Under the pieces are notes generated by a model that worked only from the letters and a program-made list of their open reading frames with translations, had not been told where the DNA came from and ran no database searches. Positions 26,145 through 52,420 of a stretch of 64,000 nucleotides of DNA are shown here, piece by piece. Positions within the stretch are counted from its first letter, which is position 1; each line of letters opens with the position of its first letter. Source of the DNA: a virus. The stretch is from IMG/VR virus record IMGVR_UViG_3300022752_005671, positions 123,070 through 187,069 of that record, one strand, 5' to 3'. A program made the translations under genes and the position numbers.

Positions 26145-27335
26145 ATGAATGTCATTATAGGATCTAATCTTTTAGGATCCAAGAAAAATCTATCGTTATC
26201 TACTGACGGGGTTTCATGGGTAGAAAAAATCCAAAATGATTCTTGGTGTCTGTCAGGAGAGATCAAACAAGATCACGATTTTTGTTTGGACACAGTGAGC
26301 CGACTGAATCACATGCCACCGTCTCCTACGGTTCATGAAAAATATAAAAAGTCCATGCATTCATTGATGGAAGGTAATCCTCCTTGGTCAATGATTCTTC
26401 CTAAACAAGAATATAAAAAGTTTTTTGATGACATCATCAATTACTCCAAAGAACTAAAAAATGCAGAAACAGATTACTATCTAAATGCGTGGGTTCCTGG
26501 AAATAAAATTTTAAACATGATTAAACCAGCCAAAACAGATGCTGGAAAGATCAATGACATCGTTTCAACTTCTGCAGTAAATTCTCATGTCGTTGAAACT
26601 TTTCGTCCTCGATCAGGAGGATATGCTTTTCCCGTAACGTATGATCGGTTTGGAACAGTTACTGGTCGCCTTGTCGTTTCGTCTGGGCCGAGCATTCTGT
26701 TGTTAAAGAAGAATTACAGGAACATCTTAAAGCCTTCATTTCCAGATGGAAAAATTGTATCATTGGATTTTTCTTCTTTAGAAGCAAGAATCTTATTGTA
26801 TGAATCAGGCAACGATTGTTCTGAACCTGATTTATATCAGATGCTTTCGAACAAATTCGGCGGAATGTCAAGGGAGATGGTGAAAGCAGCAGTTCTCGCT
26901 GTTCTGTACGGATCTTCAAAATCAGCTGTCGCCCTTCACCTTGGAACATCTGAAGAAAAGATTGCAAAATTGATTGTTCAAATTGAAGATTACATCAGTA
27001 CAAAGTCTTTATTAAAAAGATTAAAACAAGAACACAAAACGACTGGATTCATCAAAAACAGATTTGGAAGAAAAATTCCTGTTGATCGAATGCAAGACAA
27101 CATATTCATCAACTATTATGCTCAAAGCACAGGCGTTGACGTATCATTGATGGGATTTTCAAATATCATGGATGTTTTAGGAATTGAAGGTATAAGACCA
27201 ATATTTGTTCTTCACGACGCGTTGATTCTTGACGTCCACCCAGATAGACTTGCTGATGTATCCAACGTTTCAAAAACAAAGGTTCATGGGTATGATCAGG
27301 AATTTCCAATAAAATTCGAAGAAATTTCGATGTAA
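26145..27335 (+). CDS. Short family A DNA polymerase-like protein (polymerase domain only)
   Basis: 396 residues with the family A polymerase signature and no 3'-5' exonuclease domain. Visible parts are the TGRL motif (about residue 171), motif A LDFSSLEARI with catalytic D208, motif B REMVKAAVLAVLYG starting at 243, and motif C LHDAL at 356-360. In motif C the usual His-Asp-Glu is His-Asp-Ala: the essential Asp (D358) is kept and the Glu is replaced. The first 150 residues are not recognised. Because the phage also encodes a DnaE-type polymerase, this one may do gap filling, primer replacement or repair. It opens the replication module. Length is well below T7 gp5 (704) or Pol I. Confidence 0.82.
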   Translation: MNVIIGSNLLGSKKNLSLSTDGVSWVEKIQNDSWCLSGEIKQDHDFCLDTVSRLNHMPPSPTVHEKYKKSMHSLMEGNPPWSMILPKQEYKKFFDDIINYSKELKNAETDYYLNAWVPGNKILNMIKPAKTDAGKINDIVSTSAVNSHVVETFRPRSGGYAFPVTYDRFGTVTGRLVVSSGPSILLLKKNYRNILKPSFPDGKIVSLDFSSLEARILLYESGNDCSEPDLYQMLSNKFGGMSREMVKAAVLAVLYGSSKSAVALHLGTSEEKIAKLIVQIEDYISTKSLLKRLKQEHKTTGFIKNRFGRKIPVDRMQDNIFINYYAQSTGVDVSLMGFSNIMDVLGIEGIRPIFVLHDALILDVHPDRLADVSNVSKTKVHGYDQEFPIKFEEISM

Positions 27336-43569: not shown

Positions 43570-44649
43570 ATGCAACGAACGCTTTGTTTTGATGATGTTC
43601 TTTTGGTTCCCCAATATTCAGAGATTGAGTCTAGAAAAAATGTTGACGTGTCTGTTTCGGGATTTGATGATCTTGATGCAGCGCTGACAAAATTGCATTC
43701 GACTCTAAAATGCCCTATCGTCGGATCACCGATGGATACGGTCATTAGTCCTGAAGTAGCTAGCGTTTTGGAAGACTTTGGCGGATTCGGGGTTTTACAT
43801 CGATATTGCACAATTCAAGATTCAGTAAAAATGTTCAAGGAAACGCTTGAAAAGTGTCCTGGACATCCTTTGCCGAATATCATGGTTGCAATTGGTGCGA
43901 CGGGAGATTATCTTGAGCGTGCTACTGCTTTATACGAATCTGGATGTAGAGCATTTTGCATTGATGTTGCACATGGCCATCATTCATCTGTAAAAAACGC
44001 ATTAAAAGAATTACGTCTTAAATTTGGAGATGAAGTTCATTTAATGTCAGGCAACGTTGCAACTCTAGATGCATTTAATGATCTTGCTGATTGGGGCTCT
44101 AACTCCATAAGAGTTGGTGTGGGTGGTGGAAGCATGTGTTCAACTAGAATTCGAACTGGTCATGGTATTCCAACTTTACAATCTTTGATGGATTGTGCAA
44201 AATCGGATCGTGACGTTTTTATTGTAGCAGATGGTGGAATTAGAAATTCAGGGGATGCTGTTAAAGCTTTGGCTGCAGGTGCAGATATGATTATGCTAGG
44301 ATCTATTTTGGCAGGACATGATGAATGTCCTGGCGATCTTGTAGATTCTCATGGATTGACGTATAAGTCATCGCAACCTATTGGCGTTCCACTTTTTAAG
44401 AAATTTAGAGGAATGGCTTCACGAGAAGCTCAACTTCAATGGAGAGGTAGAGTTTCTGTCGTCGAGGGAGAAAGTACTATGATTCCTTACAAAGGATCTG
44501 TAGCAAACACATTGACAGATTTGCTTGAAGGAATTAAATCAGGAATATCTTATTCAGGTGCTAGAACGATTAGAGAACTTAGAGCAAAGGCTAAGTTTGT
44601 CACAGTGACAGCACAAGGGGTCCGAGAAAATGGACCCCATGGTAAATGA
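43570..44649 (+). CDS. IMP dehydrogenase/GMP reductase family protein (no CBS domain)
   Basis: 359 residues with a TIM-barrel of the IMPDH/GMPR family. The catalytic cysteine is C190 in GGGSMCSTR, preceded by the phosphate-binding VGVGGG, and [21 protein letters not shown] is the second phosphate loop. The N-terminus [14 protein letters not shown] is canonical. CBS domains are missing, making it GMPR-sized; substrate (IMP or GMP) cannot be decided. It would shift the purine pool during infection. IMPDH is another known split-intein host in environmental phages, but this gene is intact. Confidence 0.88.
44617..44638 (+). other. GC-rich hairpin at 3' end of IMPDH/GMPR gene
   Basis: GGGGTCC (44617-44623) and GGACCCC (44632-44638) form a 7-bp stem with an 8-base loop just inside the stop codon. 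A weaker GATTTA/TAAATC pair around a T run lies at 44654-44676 between the convergent genes. Together they could end transcription from either side. Confidence 0.45.
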
Positions 44650-45588: not shown

Positions 45589-46593
45589 ATGGCTAAAGGA
45601 TTAGATGTAGGAACATCATTCATCGTTCTCGCAGAAGAAGGAACGAAAGGGAAAGTTACATATAAAGATTTTCGAGATGCATTTTATGTCATCAAGCCTA
45701 CGACCCCCATTGCTACGAAAATGATTGAAAAGGGTCTGGCAGGAAAAGTATTCGTCAAGGACGCTGACGGTTCTTTCATCATCCTTGGTAAGGATGCCAT
45801 TGAGAAGGCCGTAGAGAGAAATGATTCTGCAAAGCGTCCCATGTATAAGGGAGTTGTATCATCAAAGGAGAAGGATGCACGTAGAATTTTGACCTATATC
45901 CTTAAAGAAGTTGCTGGTACACCTTCTGAGGCAGGAGAAAAATTGGTATTTTGCGTTCCAGCGCAGCCTGTAGATCAGGAAGATGAGGACTTCGACGTTG
46001 GATACCATGAGGACGTTATAGTCAAACTCCTCACCGAAGTTGGTTATTCTGCGAGAGCTATCAATGAAGCAGAAGCTCTTTGCTACTCTGAATTAGAAAA
46101 GGATGACTACACCGGCGTCGCTCTATCATGGGGAGCAGGCATGGTCAACGTTTGCGTTATGTTGAATGGTGAACCTGTCGTTACATTCTCAACAACGAAA
46201 TCAGGAGATTGGGTAGATCGTATGGCTGCTGTCGCAACAGGCGAAGCTGATTCTATCGTTCAGGCAGAAAAGGAACAAGGCGACTTTACGGTTGGCCAAC
46301 CGAACGATAATCAGGTTCTAGCAGCTGTTGCTTCTTACTATGATCGTCTTATTGACTACACAACGAAGCAACTTGCCTCAGCAATGGATGGGCATAAGTC
46401 GATTCCAAAGTTTAAAGATCCTCTTCCGGTGGTTGTTGCTGGTGGAACTTCAAAAGCCAAGGGATTCGTAGACCTATTCGCAAAGAAACTGGAAGAGAAT
46501 GGCTTCCCTCTACCGGTCAAGGAAGTCCGCCATGCAGCAGACCCGCTGCACGCCGTCGCCCGTGGATGCCTCATCGCTGCACAAATTATGTGA
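45589..46593 (+). CDS. Actin-like ATPase (ParM/MreB/Hsp70-superfamily fold)
   Basis: 334 residues with an AGGAGATAA ribosome site. The five-motif actin fold can be traced: phosphate-1 GLDVGTSFIVLA at the N-terminus, connect-1 region INEAEALCYSE (about 150), phosphate-2 LSWGAGMVNVCVML (about 180), and the adenosine motif VVVAGGTSKAKGF (about 285). Codons are of the well-expressed type. It may form filaments for DNA or virion positioning, as in plasmid ParM or phage-encoded cytoskeletons. Polymerisation is not shown by sequence. Confidence 0.8.
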   Translation: MAKGLDVGTSFIVLAEEGTKGKVTYKDFRDAFYVIKPTTPIATKMIEKGLAGKVFVKDADGSFIILGKDAIEKAVERNDSAKRPMYKGVVSSKEKDARRILTYILKEVAGTPSEAGEKLVFCVPAQPVDQEDEDFDVGYHEDVIVKLLTEVGYSARAINEAEALCYSELEKDDYTGVALSWGAGMVNVCVMLNGEPVVTFSTTKSGDWVDRMAAVATGEADSIVQAEKEQGDFTVGQPNDNQVLAAVASYYDRLIDYTTKQLASAMDGHKSIPKFKDPLPVVVAGGTSKAKGFVDLFAKKLEENGFPLPVKEVRHAADPLHAVARGCLIAAQIM

Positions 46594-47474: not shown

Positions 47475-49279
47475 ATGTCAAACAACTACACAGGAGGACC
47501 CAAGAATCCCGTGCGAGTGCCTAACCGATTTGTCGGCATGCATTCGCATAGCGGATTCTCGTAACGACCTTTGATGGACTCGACTACCCTCAGGAACACA
47601 TCGATTACGTCTTAGAAAATGGAATGGACGCATGGTCGCTAACTGACCATGGACATATGAACGGATTCTGCCATGCATATCTTCATGCAGAAAAGATGAA
47701 GAAATCAGGTAAGAATTTTAAGTTCATTCCTGGCTGCGAAATGTATGTCCATCCTGATCTGAAACAGTGGCAGATTGATCTTGAAAAGTCAAAGGAGAAA
47801 CCGATCAAGGACGAATCCATCATCACGCCGATCACTGCTGTCGTCGACGGAAACGACGAGACGACCGATCTGGGAACAGATGAAGCATCATTGACTATCG
47901 AAAACGAAGATGAGACCAAGTCAGGCAAGTACAACGATCCTGTCAAACGCAGGCATCATTTGGTTGTCCTACCAAAAACTTCAATTGGTCTACAAAGGTT
48001 ATTTCATCTAGTTTCTCGAGGTTATTTGGAGGGTTTCTACAGGTTCCCAAGAGTGGATTATGGGATGTTGAAGGAAGCGGCTAAGGACGGGCATCTAATG
48101 GTTAGCACTGCATGCCTTGGCGGAGCCCTTAGTTATGATGTCTTTTCAAAGCTTCAAAAGATTAAGTTTGACGATCTGAAGCATCAACTTCTTGAAGATG
48201 ATTCATTGTTGGAATCCGTCTTGCTTGAGATGGGCAACACCTATGATAAGCTTGCTGATGCAGTAGGTAGAGACAATGTGACTTTGGAGCTACAATTCAA
48301 TAAGCTTCCAGCACAACACCTTGTCAATCGTGCTCTGATCGAATTTGCAAGACGAAACTCTTTGACGAATCGGTTGGTTGTTACTTGCGATTCGCACTAT
48401 TCTCGTCCTGATAACTGGAAGGAGCGTGAAATCTACAAGAAGCTCGGATGGCTTAACTATCAAAACTTCGATCCGAACATGCTTCCGAAGTCCAAGGATG
48501 ATCTTAAGTGCGAACTCTATCCGAAGAACGCAACACAGGTTTGGGATTCGTATCGATCAACGACAGAAGGCATGGATTTCTATGATGATGATCTAATTTG
48601 TGAAGCCATTGAACGTACTCATGACATCGTCCACAATGAGTTAGGTGACATCCATCCCGGTAAGGAGATGAAGCTGCCTTCATATGTGATTCCAGAAGGA
48701 TCAACTGAAGATAAGGCTCTTGTTGAAGCCTGTAAGAAGGGATTAATCTGGCGTGGGTTGGACGGCAAAACTGATTATATCGAACGCGTCAAGTATGAAC
48801 TATCAATCATTCGTGGAAAGAAGTTCTCTAGGTACTTCCTCACGATGAAGGCAATCATGGACCTTGCTCGTGAACACATGCTGATTGGTCCGGGCCGCGG
48901 ATCTGCAGCTGGTTCTCTTGTTGCATACGTTCTTGGCGTGACAAACCTAGATCCTGTAGAGTATGACCTTTCATTTGAACGGTTTCTCAATCCTCATAGA
49001 TGTTTGAATCCAGAAACTTTAGTAAAAACTGAAAAAAGTTTTAAAAAAATCAAAGATTTAGAAATTGGTGACTTAGTAGTCGGAGGATCTGGATCATTAA
49101 AGAAAGTTAATAACAGGTTTGTTTCAAAAGCAAAAAGAGTTTATCGATTTACGACTGACGAAGGATGCATTGAGTGTTCGGAAAATCATCTATGGATTGT
49201 TATCCGCAATGATAAAAAAATTGAAGTTCAAGCTAAGGAAATTTTGATTACAGATGAATTATTATCTATCGTTAAATAA
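47475..49279 (+). CDS. dnaE: DNA polymerase III alpha subunit, N-terminal part fused to N-intein; apparent frameshift in PHP domain
   Basis: N-terminal half of a bacterial-type replicative polymerase. ATG 47475 opens a frame giving PNRFVGMHSHSGFS, the first PHP metal-binding motif, and stops at TAA 47562. The remaining PHP continues in another frame (TTFDGLDYPQEHIDYVL from 47567, then LTDHGHMNG, GCEMYV, TCDSHY). The frame then runs to 49279. The palm has GPGRGSAAGSLVAY and FERFLNPHR (48984-49000). Just where the catalytic PDID motif should follow, the sequence changes to an intein starting at Cys 49001. The break may be a sequencing error, a programmed frameshift or a 5-base bypass. The terminator upstream and a weak ribosome site precede the start. 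Confidence 0.85.
49001..49276 (+). other. Split intein, N-terminal half (92 residues)
   Basis: Begins with nucleophile Cys (CLNPETLVKTEK, block A), continues with IKDLEIGDLVVG, and contains the block B-like ECSENHLWIV with its His. It ends with a stop at 49277-49279 rather than entering an endonuclease domain, as expected of a split intein half. Codons are more AT-ending than in the flanking extein. Confidence 0.9.
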
Positions 49280-49287
49280 TTATCTGC

Positions 49288-50223
49288 ATGAAGAGAATTG
49301 AGAAAACTTGTGAATATTGCAAAAAGATTTTTTATGTAGAATACGTTGTTAACGGATCTGGTTCTGCAGGTTCAGCAAGAAAGAAATACTGCAGTGTAAA
49401 ATGCAAAAAAGCCTGGTACAAAATTCCTGAAAACGGATCTAAACAAAAAGTTGAATGCAAGATATGCGGTAAAGAATTTTATCTTCCACATTCACAAGCA
49501 AAAAACCGTGTGACATGCTCAAAAAAATGTTATGCAAAGCACATATCATCTGTCAACACACGGCATGCAAAAATTCAAAAACAATGCAATAACTGTCATA
49601 AACATTTTGAGATAAATGAAAATAGTACTCAAAAATTTTGTTCTCCTGATTGTTTTTCAAAAAGTCTTTATGATAGAAAAGATGTTTTTTGCGAAGTTTG
49701 CAACTCTAAACTAACAGTAAAAAAATCTGCAACGACTCGTTTTTGTAATAAAATTTGCTCAAGAAAAGGTCAATCATTAGGATTAATAAAGTCTCATACA
49801 AATGGAAGAACAGGGTGGAGGGTTGACATACAAGATTCTCCTTATTTTAAAAGTTCTCTTGAAGCAGATTACGCAAGGTATTGCATTTATCTAAACATTC
49901 GTTTTGAATATGAAAAAAAAGTTTTTGAAACAGAAGTAAACGGGAAGAAACGATTTTATACCCCCGATTTTTATTTACCAGATTCAGATGAATTTATCGA
50001 ATTAAAAGGTGTTCGAGAAAGTGAAAATCTATTCTCAAAAAAGTTAAATTCAAATTCAGCGGCTAGAGAAAGTTTAAATTCTACAAACACAAAAATAAAA
50101 GTTGTATACATGAACGATTTTTATTCAATGTTGAGATCATCTGATCTCTATGATAAAATCCCAAATTTAGAAAATAAAGATTATGGAAGAACAGCTCATC
50201 TCATTAAAACGCACAAAGATTAA
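49288..50223 (+). CDS. Free-standing homing endonuclease, PD-(D/E)XK type with four zinc knuckles
   Basis: 311 residues. Four Cys-rich knuckles in tandem (CEYC...CSVKC, CKICG...CSKKC, CNNCH...CSPDC, CEVC...CNKIC; residues about 8-155) resemble FCS-type zinc fingers. The C-terminal nuclease domain has SLEADYARY (Glu), YTPDFYLPD (Asp) and FIELKG (ExK), which fit PD-(D/E)XK. It sits between the two intein halves and would mobilise the cassette by cutting uninterrupted dnaE. It starts 8 bases after the N-part stop and overlaps the C-part start by 41 bases. It is not of the Vsr-like type used by the 8526 gene. Confidence 0.82.
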   Translation: MKRIEKTCEYCKKIFYVEYVVNGSGSAGSARKKYCSVKCKKAWYKIPENGSKQKVECKICGKEFYLPHSQAKNRVTCSKKCYAKHISSVNTRHAKIQKQCNNCHKHFEINENSTQKFCSPDCFSKSLYDRKDVFCEVCNSKLTVKKSATTRFCNKICSRKGQSLGLIKSHTNGRTGWRVDIQDSPYFKSSLEADYARYCIYLNIRFEYEKKVFETEVNGKKRFYTPDFYLPDSDEFIELKGVRESENLFSKKLNSNSAARESLNSTNTKIKVVYMNDFYSMLRSSDLYDKIPNLENKDYGRTAHLIKTHKD

Positions 50224-50338
50224 TTCAATTGAGATCGTTGATCTAGAAGATGAAATCGAATTAATTGACATCGAAGTTGACGATGATCACACATTTTTTG
50301 TTTCAGACAAAAATGAAGAATGGTTGTTAACTCATAAT
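50183..50338 (+). other. Split intein, C-terminal half (52 residues)
   Basis: Contains the block F-like segment IDIEVDDDHTFFVSD and block G WLLTHN followed by +1 Ser of the C-extein. The terminal Asn and preceding His are the residues that drive succinimide formation. With the N-half it makes a mini-intein of 144 residues, a typical size. Confidence 0.9.
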
Positions 50339-52420
50339 TCAGGTGCCCCTGATATCGATTCTGATATTTCTGATCGAGACAAGCTTATTGAACTTCTACG
50401 TGAGAACTTTGGTAATAATAACGTCATTCCGATTTCCAACTACAACACATTTAAGTTGAAGAGCCTTATTAAGGACATTGCTCGCTTCTATAACATTCCA
50501 TTCGAAGAAGTTAATGCTGCTCTAGCACCAGTTGAGGATGATGTTAAGAAAGAAGTCTTCAAGCCTGGTGTCGATAAGAACCTTTTCGTGTTGACGTATG
50601 AAGACGCGATGAAGTATTCTAAGTCCATGCAAGATTTCGTTGCTGCACATCCTGAAGTTGCAGAACCCATTGAGATTCTTTTCAAGCAGAATCGTTCCTT
50701 AGGTCGCCACGCCGGTGGCGTTATCGTGTCTGAAGACATTGCTGAACGTATGCCACTCATCCTAGCAAAGGGAGAGCCTCAGACCCCTTGGGTCGAGGGC
50801 ATGCACTACAAGCATCTTGAGGAGTTTGGGTGGATCAAGTTTGATCTACTCGGTCTCGAAACGTTACGCATCATCGAACGTTGCATTTACTTAATCCTAC
50901 AACGACGTGAAGGTGTTTCCAATCCGACATTTCAAGACATCAAGGCATGGTTCGACAAGAACATGGATCCAAAGAACATTGATCTTAATGATCAACGGGT
51001 CTATGAGTACGTCTACCATGAAGGGCGTTTTGCCGGCGTCTTCCAATGTACTCAACCAGGTGCTCAGCGACTCTTCACCAAGGCGAAGCCGCGCAGCATC
51101 ATCGATATTGCTACTTTGACCTCAATCTATCGCCCAGGTCCACTGGCAGCGAACGTCGATAAGATCTATATTGGTGCCAAGAATGAACCTGAAAAGATTG
51201 ATTATCAGCATCCTCTCATTAAGAAGGTGCTTGAACCGACATACGGTTGCATTATTTTCCAGGAGCAAACCATGAAACTTTGCTCAGTCGTGGCGGGATT
51301 CCCTGAGGCAGAGACGGATACAATTCGTCGCAACATCATGAAACGTTCAGCATCTAAGAAGGACGCAGCGGCCGCTGACGCGAAGAAAGCAAAAGAAGAT
51401 TTTGTCGCCGGAGCAATGAAGAATGGCGTACCCAATCATGTTGCTGATGAACTATATGAAAAGATCCTCTTTTTCTCAGGTTACGGGTTTAACGCATCTC
51501 ACGCCGTGTCATATGCTATCGATTCTTACTATTGTGCATGGCTCCTTACTTACTTTGAAGAGGAATGGTTATGCGCATATCTCGAATCGATGTCAGGAAA
51601 CGATGAGAAGCGAGCAAAGGCTTTCTCAGAGGTAAAGGCTCTTGGATACAAGATCGTCAATATTGATGTCAATTATGCGACGAAGAGTTGGACGATTCTT
51701 GAAGGCAAGCGATTTATGCCAAGCTTCCTTTCATGTAAGGGTGTCGGTGAAGCCGCTGTAGATGAAATCATCGAAAATCGTCCATATAAATCCGTGGAGG
51801 ATATGCTGTGGAATGAGGATGGTACCTGGAAGCATTCCAAGTTTAATAAACGCGCGCTTGAAGCCTTGATAGGAATCAAGGCGTTTGATTCGTTAGACTG
51901 TATCGGTATGGACCGAACATTCGCTAGTTATAAACAGATGCACCAGATCTTGATCGATCACAACAATGAAATCAAGAAGCATACGAAGAAGAATCCCCTT
52001 GCAGGAATGGAGGCATTCCGTAACTTTCTCATTGAAACGAAGGATGAGCCTGAATGGACTCGAGCAGAGATGGTTGATAATAGCATTAAATATCTTGGAT
52101 CATTTAATGCGGCGATGCTGATGCCCGATGATATTCTTAGAAAGTTAGAGACTAAAGGTGTTAAGTCAGTCGACGATCTTTCTGAAAGCGACATCTATTG
52201 GTTTATCGTTTCAGATACAAAACCCAAAAAGACTAAAACAGGAAAGAACTATTTGCTTTTGACCATCACCGGTCTCGGTGGACAAAATCATAGATTGTTT
52301 TGTTGGGGATGGGATGGAAACAGAGAAATTCCAAAATACAGCGTATGCCTCTCAGAAATCACAGTCGATGGATACGGTAATAAAACTTTCATGAGTAAGA
52401 TTAAAGTTTTGGATTCATGA
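50183..52420 (+). CDS. dnaE: DNA polymerase III alpha subunit, C-terminal part preceded by C-intein
   Basis: 745 residues. Residues 1-52 are the C-intein and the polymerase starts at Ser53 (SGAPDIDSDISD), which carries the first two catalytic aspartates. FDLLGLETL at about 221 holds the third. The finger region SGYGFNASHAVSYAI (about 435) is intact; this is the equivalent of the cyanobacterial DnaE intein site, so the insertion here is at another position. The C-terminal part includes helix-hairpin-helix-like GVGEAAVDEII and an OB-type segment before the end. After protein splicing it would join the N-part to give a full alpha subunit. ATG 50183 lies inside the end of the endonuclease gene. 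Confidence 0.9.
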   Translation: MEEQLISLKRTKINSIEIVDLEDEIELIDIEVDDDHTFFVSDKNEEWLLTHNSGAPDIDSDISDRDKLIELLRENFGNNNVIPISNYNTFKLKSLIKDIARFYNIPFEEVNAALAPVEDDVKKEVFKPGVDKNLFVLTYEDAMKYSKSMQDFVAAHPEVAEPIEILFKQNRSLGRHAGGVIVSEDIAERMPLILAKGEPQTPWVEGMHYKHLEEFGWIKFDLLGLETLRIIERCIYLILQRREGVSNPTFQDIKAWFDKNMDPKNIDLNDQRVYEYVYHEGRFAGVFQCTQPGAQRLFTKAKPRSIIDIATLTSIYRPGPLAANVDKIYIGAKNEPEKIDYQHPLIKKVLEPTYGCIIFQEQTMKLCSVVAGFPEAETDTIRRNIMKRSASKKDAAAADAKKAKEDFVAGAMKNGVPNHVADELYEKILFFSGYGFNASHAVSYAIDSYYCAWLLTYFEEEWLCAYLESMSGNDEKRAKAFSEVKALGYKIVNIDVNYATKSWTILEGKRFMPSFLSCKGVGEAAVDEIIENRPYKSVEDMLWNEDGTWKHSKFNKRALEALIGIKAFDSLDCIGMDRTFASYKQMHQILIDHNNEIKKHTKKNPLAGMEAFRNFLIETKDEPEWTRAEMVDNSIKYLGSFNAAMLMPDDILRKLETKGVKSVDDLSESDIYWFIVSDTKPKKTKTGKNYLLLTITGLGGQNHRLFCWGWDGNREIPKYSVCLSEITVDGYGNKTFMSKIKVLDS

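Follow-up and report, generated by a model that had tools for sequence, protein, structure and literature searches.

A phage dnaE gene interrupted twice: a split intein enclosing an endonuclease gene and a putative translational bypass element

Fractured genes, in which a split intein divides a gene and a free-standing endonuclease gene lies between the two halves, were reportedly described by Dassa and colleagues in 2009, with gp41-1, NrdA and IMPDH among other hosts. The cyanobacterial DnaE split inteins (Ssp, Npu) likewise reside in DnaE, but their halves are unlinked and no endonuclease lies between them. PolB of phage MIJ3 is a described phage polymerase of the fractured kind (PMC6892783). 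Here we analyze the dnaE gene in a 64,000-nt stretch of viral DNA (the window), which comprises positions 123,070-187,069 of the 187-kb IMG/VR virus record IMGVR_UViG_3300022752_005671. The gene is broken by a split intein with an endonuclease gene between its halves, and again near its start by a stop codon and a change of frame. Probably it encodes one DnaE carrying two mobile-element scars that are repaired after transcription, one by protein trans-splicing and the other by endonuclease-linked translational bypassing. The argument draws on sequence: the anatomy of the gene, exact empty sites, purifying selection, relative mobility, RNA covariation, the pattern of take-off and landing codons, and nuclease linkage. 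From these we infer splicing, bypassing, homing and immunity.

Bypassing is known from gene 60 of phage T4, which has a 5' stem-loop, a stop codon after the take-off codon and a matching landing codon, both being GGA (PMC5009743). Completion of this stem-loop on exit from the ribosome pulls the mRNA and starts the slide, and the insert has been suggested to protect against the mobA nuclease (PMC5009743). The natural cases listed in a 2016 review are T4 gene 60, the mitochondria of one yeast and, as a probable case, the terminase of a Streptomyces phage (PMC5009743). In the mitochondrial byps of Magnusiomyces capitatus, short non-coding inserts are bypassed and imperfect matches between take-off and landing are allowed (PMC5009743). 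We found no earlier description of a bypass element in phage dnaE in the open-licence literature.

The dnaE frame that opens with ATG at 47475 in the window gives MSNNYTGGPKNPVRVPNRFVGMHSHSGFS and meets a TAA (47562-47564) within the PHP domain, whose remainder (TFDGLDYPQEH...) is encoded in another frame, beginning with ACC at 47567. A previous reading made from the sequence alone had treated 47475-49279 as a single N-terminal part; this part does end with an N-intein and a stop, but it is divided by the in-frame stop and the frame change in the PHP domain. A search of viral contigs gave 43 loci, and relatives are referred to below by L-numbers. The unbroken relatives L042 and L004 read HSHSGFSTFDG straight through, and compared with intact dnaE the window has five extra nucleotides (TAACG). 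The identical break, UCGUAACGAC, occurs in six contigs (the window, L055, L043, L009, L010 and L038). In the frame-0 segment, coding is conserved among recoded relatives, and third codon positions account for 12 of the 26 variable columns. A group I intron was considered and rejected (no Rfam match, and an extra sequence of only 5 nt); the Rfam search at the break found no family, and its single chance match lay outside the element.

Recoded 5' ends, consisting of a stem, a UCN codon and a stop, are present in 24 contigs, including the window. The presumed take-off codon and the stop that follows it are UCG UAA in L149 and L150, UCG UAG in L114 and L155, UCU UAG in L040, UCC UAG in L157-L162 and L168, UCC UAA in L124, and UCC UGA in L129 and L152; tandem stops follow in L163 (UCA UAA UAA) and in L134 and L167 (UCC UAA UAA). 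L033 and L008 have a variant one motif earlier, HAHS(UCG)-UAA-12-bp hairpin-AAUAAUA-UCA-GGA, with a gap of 42 nt including the landing codon. The loop of this gap hairpin, which is flanked by Ser codons, is exactly inverted between these two close relatives (L033:2080-2135 and L008:2325-2380). The genome of L033 contains only one further half-copy of the hairpin sequence, which is therefore no dispersed repeat there. The landing codon was fixed by assuming that the consensus FS-x-[FYM]DG must be restored. So defined, the landing codons of all 11 element types share two of three bases with their take-off codons, and seven of them are Ser codons of the form UCN, giving pairs such as UCC/UCU and UCG/UCA, both Ser; L124, L163 and L033 land on Ser codons; the chance probabilities of 1e-9 (two of three bases) and 1e-6 (UCN) are nominal and uncorrected for relatedness. 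The resulting hops measure 5, 7, 9, 10, 11 or 42 nt and fall in three frames.

A strong RNA stem precedes the stop. Folding was done on the 84 nt before the stop, 60-nt windows having under-called elements with longer arms. Minimum free energies are -28.3 to -37.8 kcal/mol for 17 distinct recoded ends and -2.7 to -22.9 for 48 intact ends; the two ranges do not overlap (Mann-Whitney p 6e-10, nominal, the sequences being related). The stem of the window (-28.6 kcal/mol) is lower than all 500 synonymous shuffles, and in the 60-nt windows eight elements beat essentially all 500 synonymous recodings. In all 17 ends the 3' arm finishes 1-4 nt before the stop, in or beside the take-off codon. An alignment of nine ungapped sequences has 85.9% paired cells and two-sided changes at nine pairs; its covariation score is 0.330, a value reached by none of 500 shuffles, while versions of the stem slid along the sequence score 0.02-0.15. 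When the 607 sites preceding a stop in the window are compared, no upstream hairpin is stronger than that of the dnaE element, and one equals it; from where it lies and how it is shaped, this second hairpin was judged an intergenic terminator.

The recoded ends are associated with a nuclease. In most recoded loci a stand-alone gene for a Zn-knuckle, endonuclease-I-like nuclease lies directly upstream of dnaE, and in L114 and L124 about 20 nt separate its end from the element. This nuclease is distant kin of the one between the intein halves (about 43% over 72 aa). Among loci found through dnaE, it is upstream in 8 of the 12 that are recoded and in 1 of the 46 that are intact (Fisher p 2e-6), and a search with the family gave 25 loci, among those examined, with dnaE directly downstream. 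Annotated phage genomes contained partial matches only, and a scan of bacterial and archaeal genomes found none. The bypass element would probably mark, or protect, the target of the stand-alone nuclease in dnaE.

The second break separates an Arg codon ending at 49000 from a Ser codon starting at 50339, with an insert of 1,338 nt that contains a 92-aa N-intein (IN) and stop, a 311-aa open reading frame (ORF) with a start and a stop of its own, and a 52-aa C-intein (IC). The N-part runs ...FERFLNPHR into IN, CLNPETLVK...LLSIVK (49001-49276, stop at 49277-49279). The C-part starts with ATG at 50183, and its IC ends with EWLLTHN before SGAPDIDSD, placing the fracture directly before the catalytic PDID. 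On the C-part, Pfam places the remainder of the polymerase domain together with the finger domain and HHH_6. The splicing residues are all present: Cys1, the block B S-x-x-H, ECSENH, DHTF, and THN with Ser+1. The rejoined halves match the uninterrupted DnaE of L041 and others. Since the same fracture, with a nuclease 92-94% identical, is found in six further contigs, it is not due to chance. The end of IN (DELLSIVK, 49250-49279) resembles the start of IC (EEQLISLKR, 50183-50212), as if a few residues had been duplicated at the fracture. On this anatomy, the fractured DnaE belongs to the known fractured-gene kind, in which a split intein divides a replication enzyme and a free-standing endonuclease gene lies between the halves. 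It differs from the cases named above in its host, DnaE, in its site, FLNPxR/(S) before PDID, and in its nuclease, which is T7-endonuclease-I-like with four knuckles. The insertion site also differs from that of Ssp and Npu, whose GFNxSH-equivalent region, here GYGFNASH, is uninterrupted in the window.

Relatives present the same site in several states. It is empty in L033 and L042 (FLNPSR/QGAPDIDSD) and in L009, L010, L041 and L043 (FMNPAR/QGYPDIDSD), and these empty sites fix the boundary of the insert exactly. Comparison with uninterrupted relatives thus bears out the fracture coordinates of the sequence-only reading to the base. L038 has an unsplit mini-intein of 135 aa at exactly this site; it matches gp41-1 intein structures (phmmer E 1.8e-5), gp41-1 being the nearest solved relative of the intein. 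An AlphaFold model of the L038 intein alone had a predicted local distance difference test score (pLDDT) of 36 and was discarded. L129 has the two halves in ORFs that overlap, and no nuclease is evident between them. In L134 (7281-10996) they lie 3.3 kb apart with several small ORFs between; among the three of these tested, no nuclease was recognized and none had a Pfam match. One site is thus seen empty, with a mini-intein, split without an evident nuclease, and fractured with a nuclease. The 3' flanks of L008, which is occupied, and the closely related L033, which is empty, are almost identical.

The site is one of several, because dnaE in this phage group has at least four further fracture sites: STA/CLGG, YG/CIIFQEQ (also in L116), GPGRG/C and GFNKS/SHA, the last close to the cyanobacterial DnaE site. 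The loci listed for these are L033:2092-4100; L042:3900-5000 and L043; L129:7162-8577; and L114, L132 and L139. Each has a long ORF, mostly a recognizable nuclease, between the intein halves, and in L033 and L132 the nuclease is of the DUF559 (Vsr-related) type.

The endonuclease between the halves in the window is of another type. Its 16 Cys residues form four CxxC...CxxxC groups, and its C-terminal domain contains E192, PD227 and E238-x-K240. It matches Pfam Phage_endo_I (E 9e-5, which does not reach the curated cut-off of that model) and the PDB sequence 1m0d, T7 endonuclease I (E 8e-4), and the Pfam search gave no DUF559/Vsr-type match. Its earlier description as a PD-(D/E)XK enzyme with four zinc knuckles, rather than a Vsr-like one, agrees with these results. 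The structure model is moderate (pLDDT 63.5), and with it Foldseek found no match at E<=0.001; the top, non-significant matches, TnsA and Bax1 among them, are mostly PD-(D/E)XK nucleases, including the homing nuclease I-Bth0305I. The catalytic pattern E...PD...ExK is the one of T7 endonuclease I and I-Bth0305I-type enzymes, to which the window nuclease adds an N-terminal array of four Zn knuckles. Sequence comparison thus supports a T7-endonuclease-I-like nuclease, and the fold matches are consistent with it if weak. The nuclease is absent from the annotated phage genomes searched.

Divergence at synonymous sites (dS) between the window and L004 or L008 is 0.30-0.72 in the insert (IN, IC and nuclease) and from 1.10 to saturated in the exteins. 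The lower values indicate that transfer of the insert between these phages postdates the gene split; judged by these distances, the insert is mobile relative to its flanks. Wherever it is calculable, the ratio of nonsynonymous to synonymous divergence (dN/dS) lies at 0.01-0.10: 0.03-0.05 in the N-extein, 0.05-0.10 in the intein halves and 0.07-0.09 in the nuclease. Every part is under purifying selection, and nothing in the insert looks like a pseudogene. The split-intein reading proposed from the sequence alone is strengthened by this selection, the retained splicing residues and the contiguous L038 intein.

A model for reading this gene can be proposed. After reading UCG the ribosome would stall on UAA, and codon and anticodon would come apart. 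As the stem re-zippers at the mRNA exit channel, it would pull the mRNA back, and the ribosome would slide 5 nt forward. The peptidyl-tRNA-Ser would then re-pair with the near-matched ACG, giving the product ...HSHSGFS-TFDGLDY.... As the base of the stem lies at the P-site codon, its lower part could re-form only if the mRNA moved out by several nucleotides, which would fit hops of 5-11 nt. IN and IC would bring the two polypeptides together and trans-splice, leaving FLNPHR-SGAPDIDSD. Through the nuclease, the entire insert would spread to co-infecting relatives whose site is empty.

The element resembles T4 gene 60 and mobA in its 5' stem-loop, the stop right after take-off, a landing codon similar to the take-off codon and its location in a phage replication enzyme (PMC5009743; PMC2988022); in relatives a homing endonuclease beside the gene adds to the likeness. 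It differs in that the gap is 5-11 nt (42 nt in two relatives) rather than 50, take-off is at Ser, the stem abuts the take-off codon, the nuclease is endonuclease-I-like rather than HNH, and the element recurs in 24 contigs. No take-off stem-loop exists in the window, where 5 nt allow none, whereas L033 and L008 have the 12-bp gap hairpin. Take-off and landing codons are identical in T4 gene 60 and UCG and ACG in the window, and we therefore call the element bypass-like in mechanism, not a member of the T4 element family. From the byps of M. capitatus it is distinguished by its phage gene, its strong upstream RNA structure and its nuclease linkage.

Several observations weigh against trans-splicing combined with bypassing. 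At the landing codon of the window, ACG, only two of the three bases can pair with tRNA-Ser, and in the window alone a 5-nt hop also fits a -1 or +2 shift. The Pfam matches of the two intein halves are weak. Although no other DnaE match was found in the 187-kb record, the record may be incomplete, and a second polymerase gene could lie outside it. The stand-alone nuclease is not beside dnaE in the window, nor in L040, L033 and L008. Conversely, six contigs (L151, L153, L156, L164, L165 and L169) carry it upstream of an apparently intact dnaE, and so the nuclease does not always accompany the bypass. The dnaE genes of these six have a variant PHP motif, such as HGHSDFSPYDG, and are possibly resistant target variants.

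An unlikely explanation of the 5' break, though one that fits the net change of -1 (mod 3) in the window, is a programmed -1 (or +2) frameshift or plain readthrough of the stop. Readthrough could join the frames in L155, L157-L162 and L168, where both are the same. However, no slippery heptamer is present at the site, and a single event would have to cover shifts of 5, 7, 9, 10, 11 and 42 nt. The tandem stops in L163 and L167, together with a stop in the new frame of L124 directly before the presumed landing codon, argue against readthrough and simple frameshifting. The same consensus, FS-x-[FYM]DG, arises in all elements only by hopping.

Termination at UAA with re-initiation, at an overlapping ACG or at Met 47624, would give a 29-aa peptide and a shortened DnaE, perhaps assembling non-covalently. 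UAACG does look like an overlapping stop-start, and Met 47624 is a possible start. ACG would, however, be a very weak start, elements with UCU, GCU or UUG at this position share no start codon, the upstream HxH motif is kept, and coupling would not call for a stem that reaches into the take-off codon; we regard this as quite improbable. No better placed is the proposal that the DnaE halves remain unspliced and form a non-covalent two-subunit polymerase like the split NrdA of phage Aeh1. Split phage enzymes can function without splicing (PMC2988022), but here the splicing residues and both intein halves are under purifying selection, and an unsplit mini-intein occupies the same site.

It is very doubtful that the inverted repeat acts as DNA, as a cruciform or a binding site for an endonuclease-I-like nuclease. 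T7 endonuclease I, which the linked nuclease resembles, acts on branched DNA, but G-U pairs, which form in RNA only, are kept at 10-48, 13-45, 15-43, 16-42, 24-35 and 26-33, the stem ends at the stop region in every case, and the reading of dnaE would be left unexplained. A sequencing error or a decaying pseudogene is hardly credible: an indel in a single metagenomic contig would look alike, but the contigs sharing UCGUAACGAC differ elsewhere, 24 contigs share the architecture, the stems covary, and the N-extein downstream is under purifying selection.

Table 1. Features of the interrupted dnaE gene (window coordinates).
Feature	Coordinates	Strand	Evidence
dnaE 5' segment, frame 0 (MSNNYTGGPKNPVRVPNRFVGMHSHSGFS), with HxH metal motif of the PHP domain	47475..47561	+	Frame conserved in recoded relatives
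RNA stem-loop GAAUCCCGUGCGAGUGCC...GGCAUGCAUUCGCAUAGCGGAUUC, 3' arm ending at base 1 of the take-off codon	47503..47559	+	Folding, covariation
Putative take-off codon UCG (Ser)	47559..47561	+	UCN precedes the stop in every recoded locus
UAA stop plus CG, 5 extra nt relative to intact dnaE	47562..47566	+	UCGUAACGAC identical in six contigs
Putative landing codon ACG	47564-47566	+	5-nt skip gives back consensus GFS-TFDG
Remaining DnaE N-extein (PHP and N-terminal part of polymerase domain), ending FLNPHR	47567..49000	+	Pfam PHP E 4e-16; DNA_pol3_alpha E 1e-28
N-intein IN, 92 aa, and stop	49001..49279	+	Intein_splicing E 0.006; Hint_2 E 0.014; 46% identity to contiguous L038 intein
Free-standing endonuclease gene, four Zn-knuckle-like Cys groups and PD-(D/E)XK	49288..50223	+	E192, D227, E238, K240
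C-intein IC, 52 aa, ending THN	50183..50338	+	54% identity to L038 intein; 41-nt overlap with 3' end of nuclease gene
DnaE C-extein from SGAPDIDSD; catalytic Asp motifs PDIDSD, KFDLLG	50339..52420	+	DNA_pol3_finger E 1e-36; HHH_6 E 4e-10

The window DnaE has no cultured close relative in the phage collection, the best identity being about 30%. A PolA-like ORF of 396 aa (26145-27335) covers part of DNA_pol_A and accompanies DnaE also in three other genomes checked; no PolB was found in the record. Near dnaE lies a Volactin-like actin homologue (45589-46593; Pfam PF25216, E 6e-67) that is conserved in relatives; the family name presumably comes from haloarchaeal proteins. IMP dehydrogenase is a known fractured-gene host, and its gene in the window (43570-44649, E 2e-86) is uninterrupted.

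Phage dnaE is thus likely to host a recurrent mobile cassette composed of an endonuclease-I-like homing nuclease and a compact bypass module (5-11 nt), which in the window coexists with trans-splicing. The intein is a new candidate for use in protein ligation as a split intein, and the states of its site, comparable at one position, bear on the origin of split inteins. If the reading is correct, the dnaE elements would form a class of translational bypassing that is natural and widespread, and would provide a comparative system in which stem length, distance from stem to P-site, gap length and codon matching vary naturally. The family would also lend weight to the view that bypass inserts move in company with homing nucleases.

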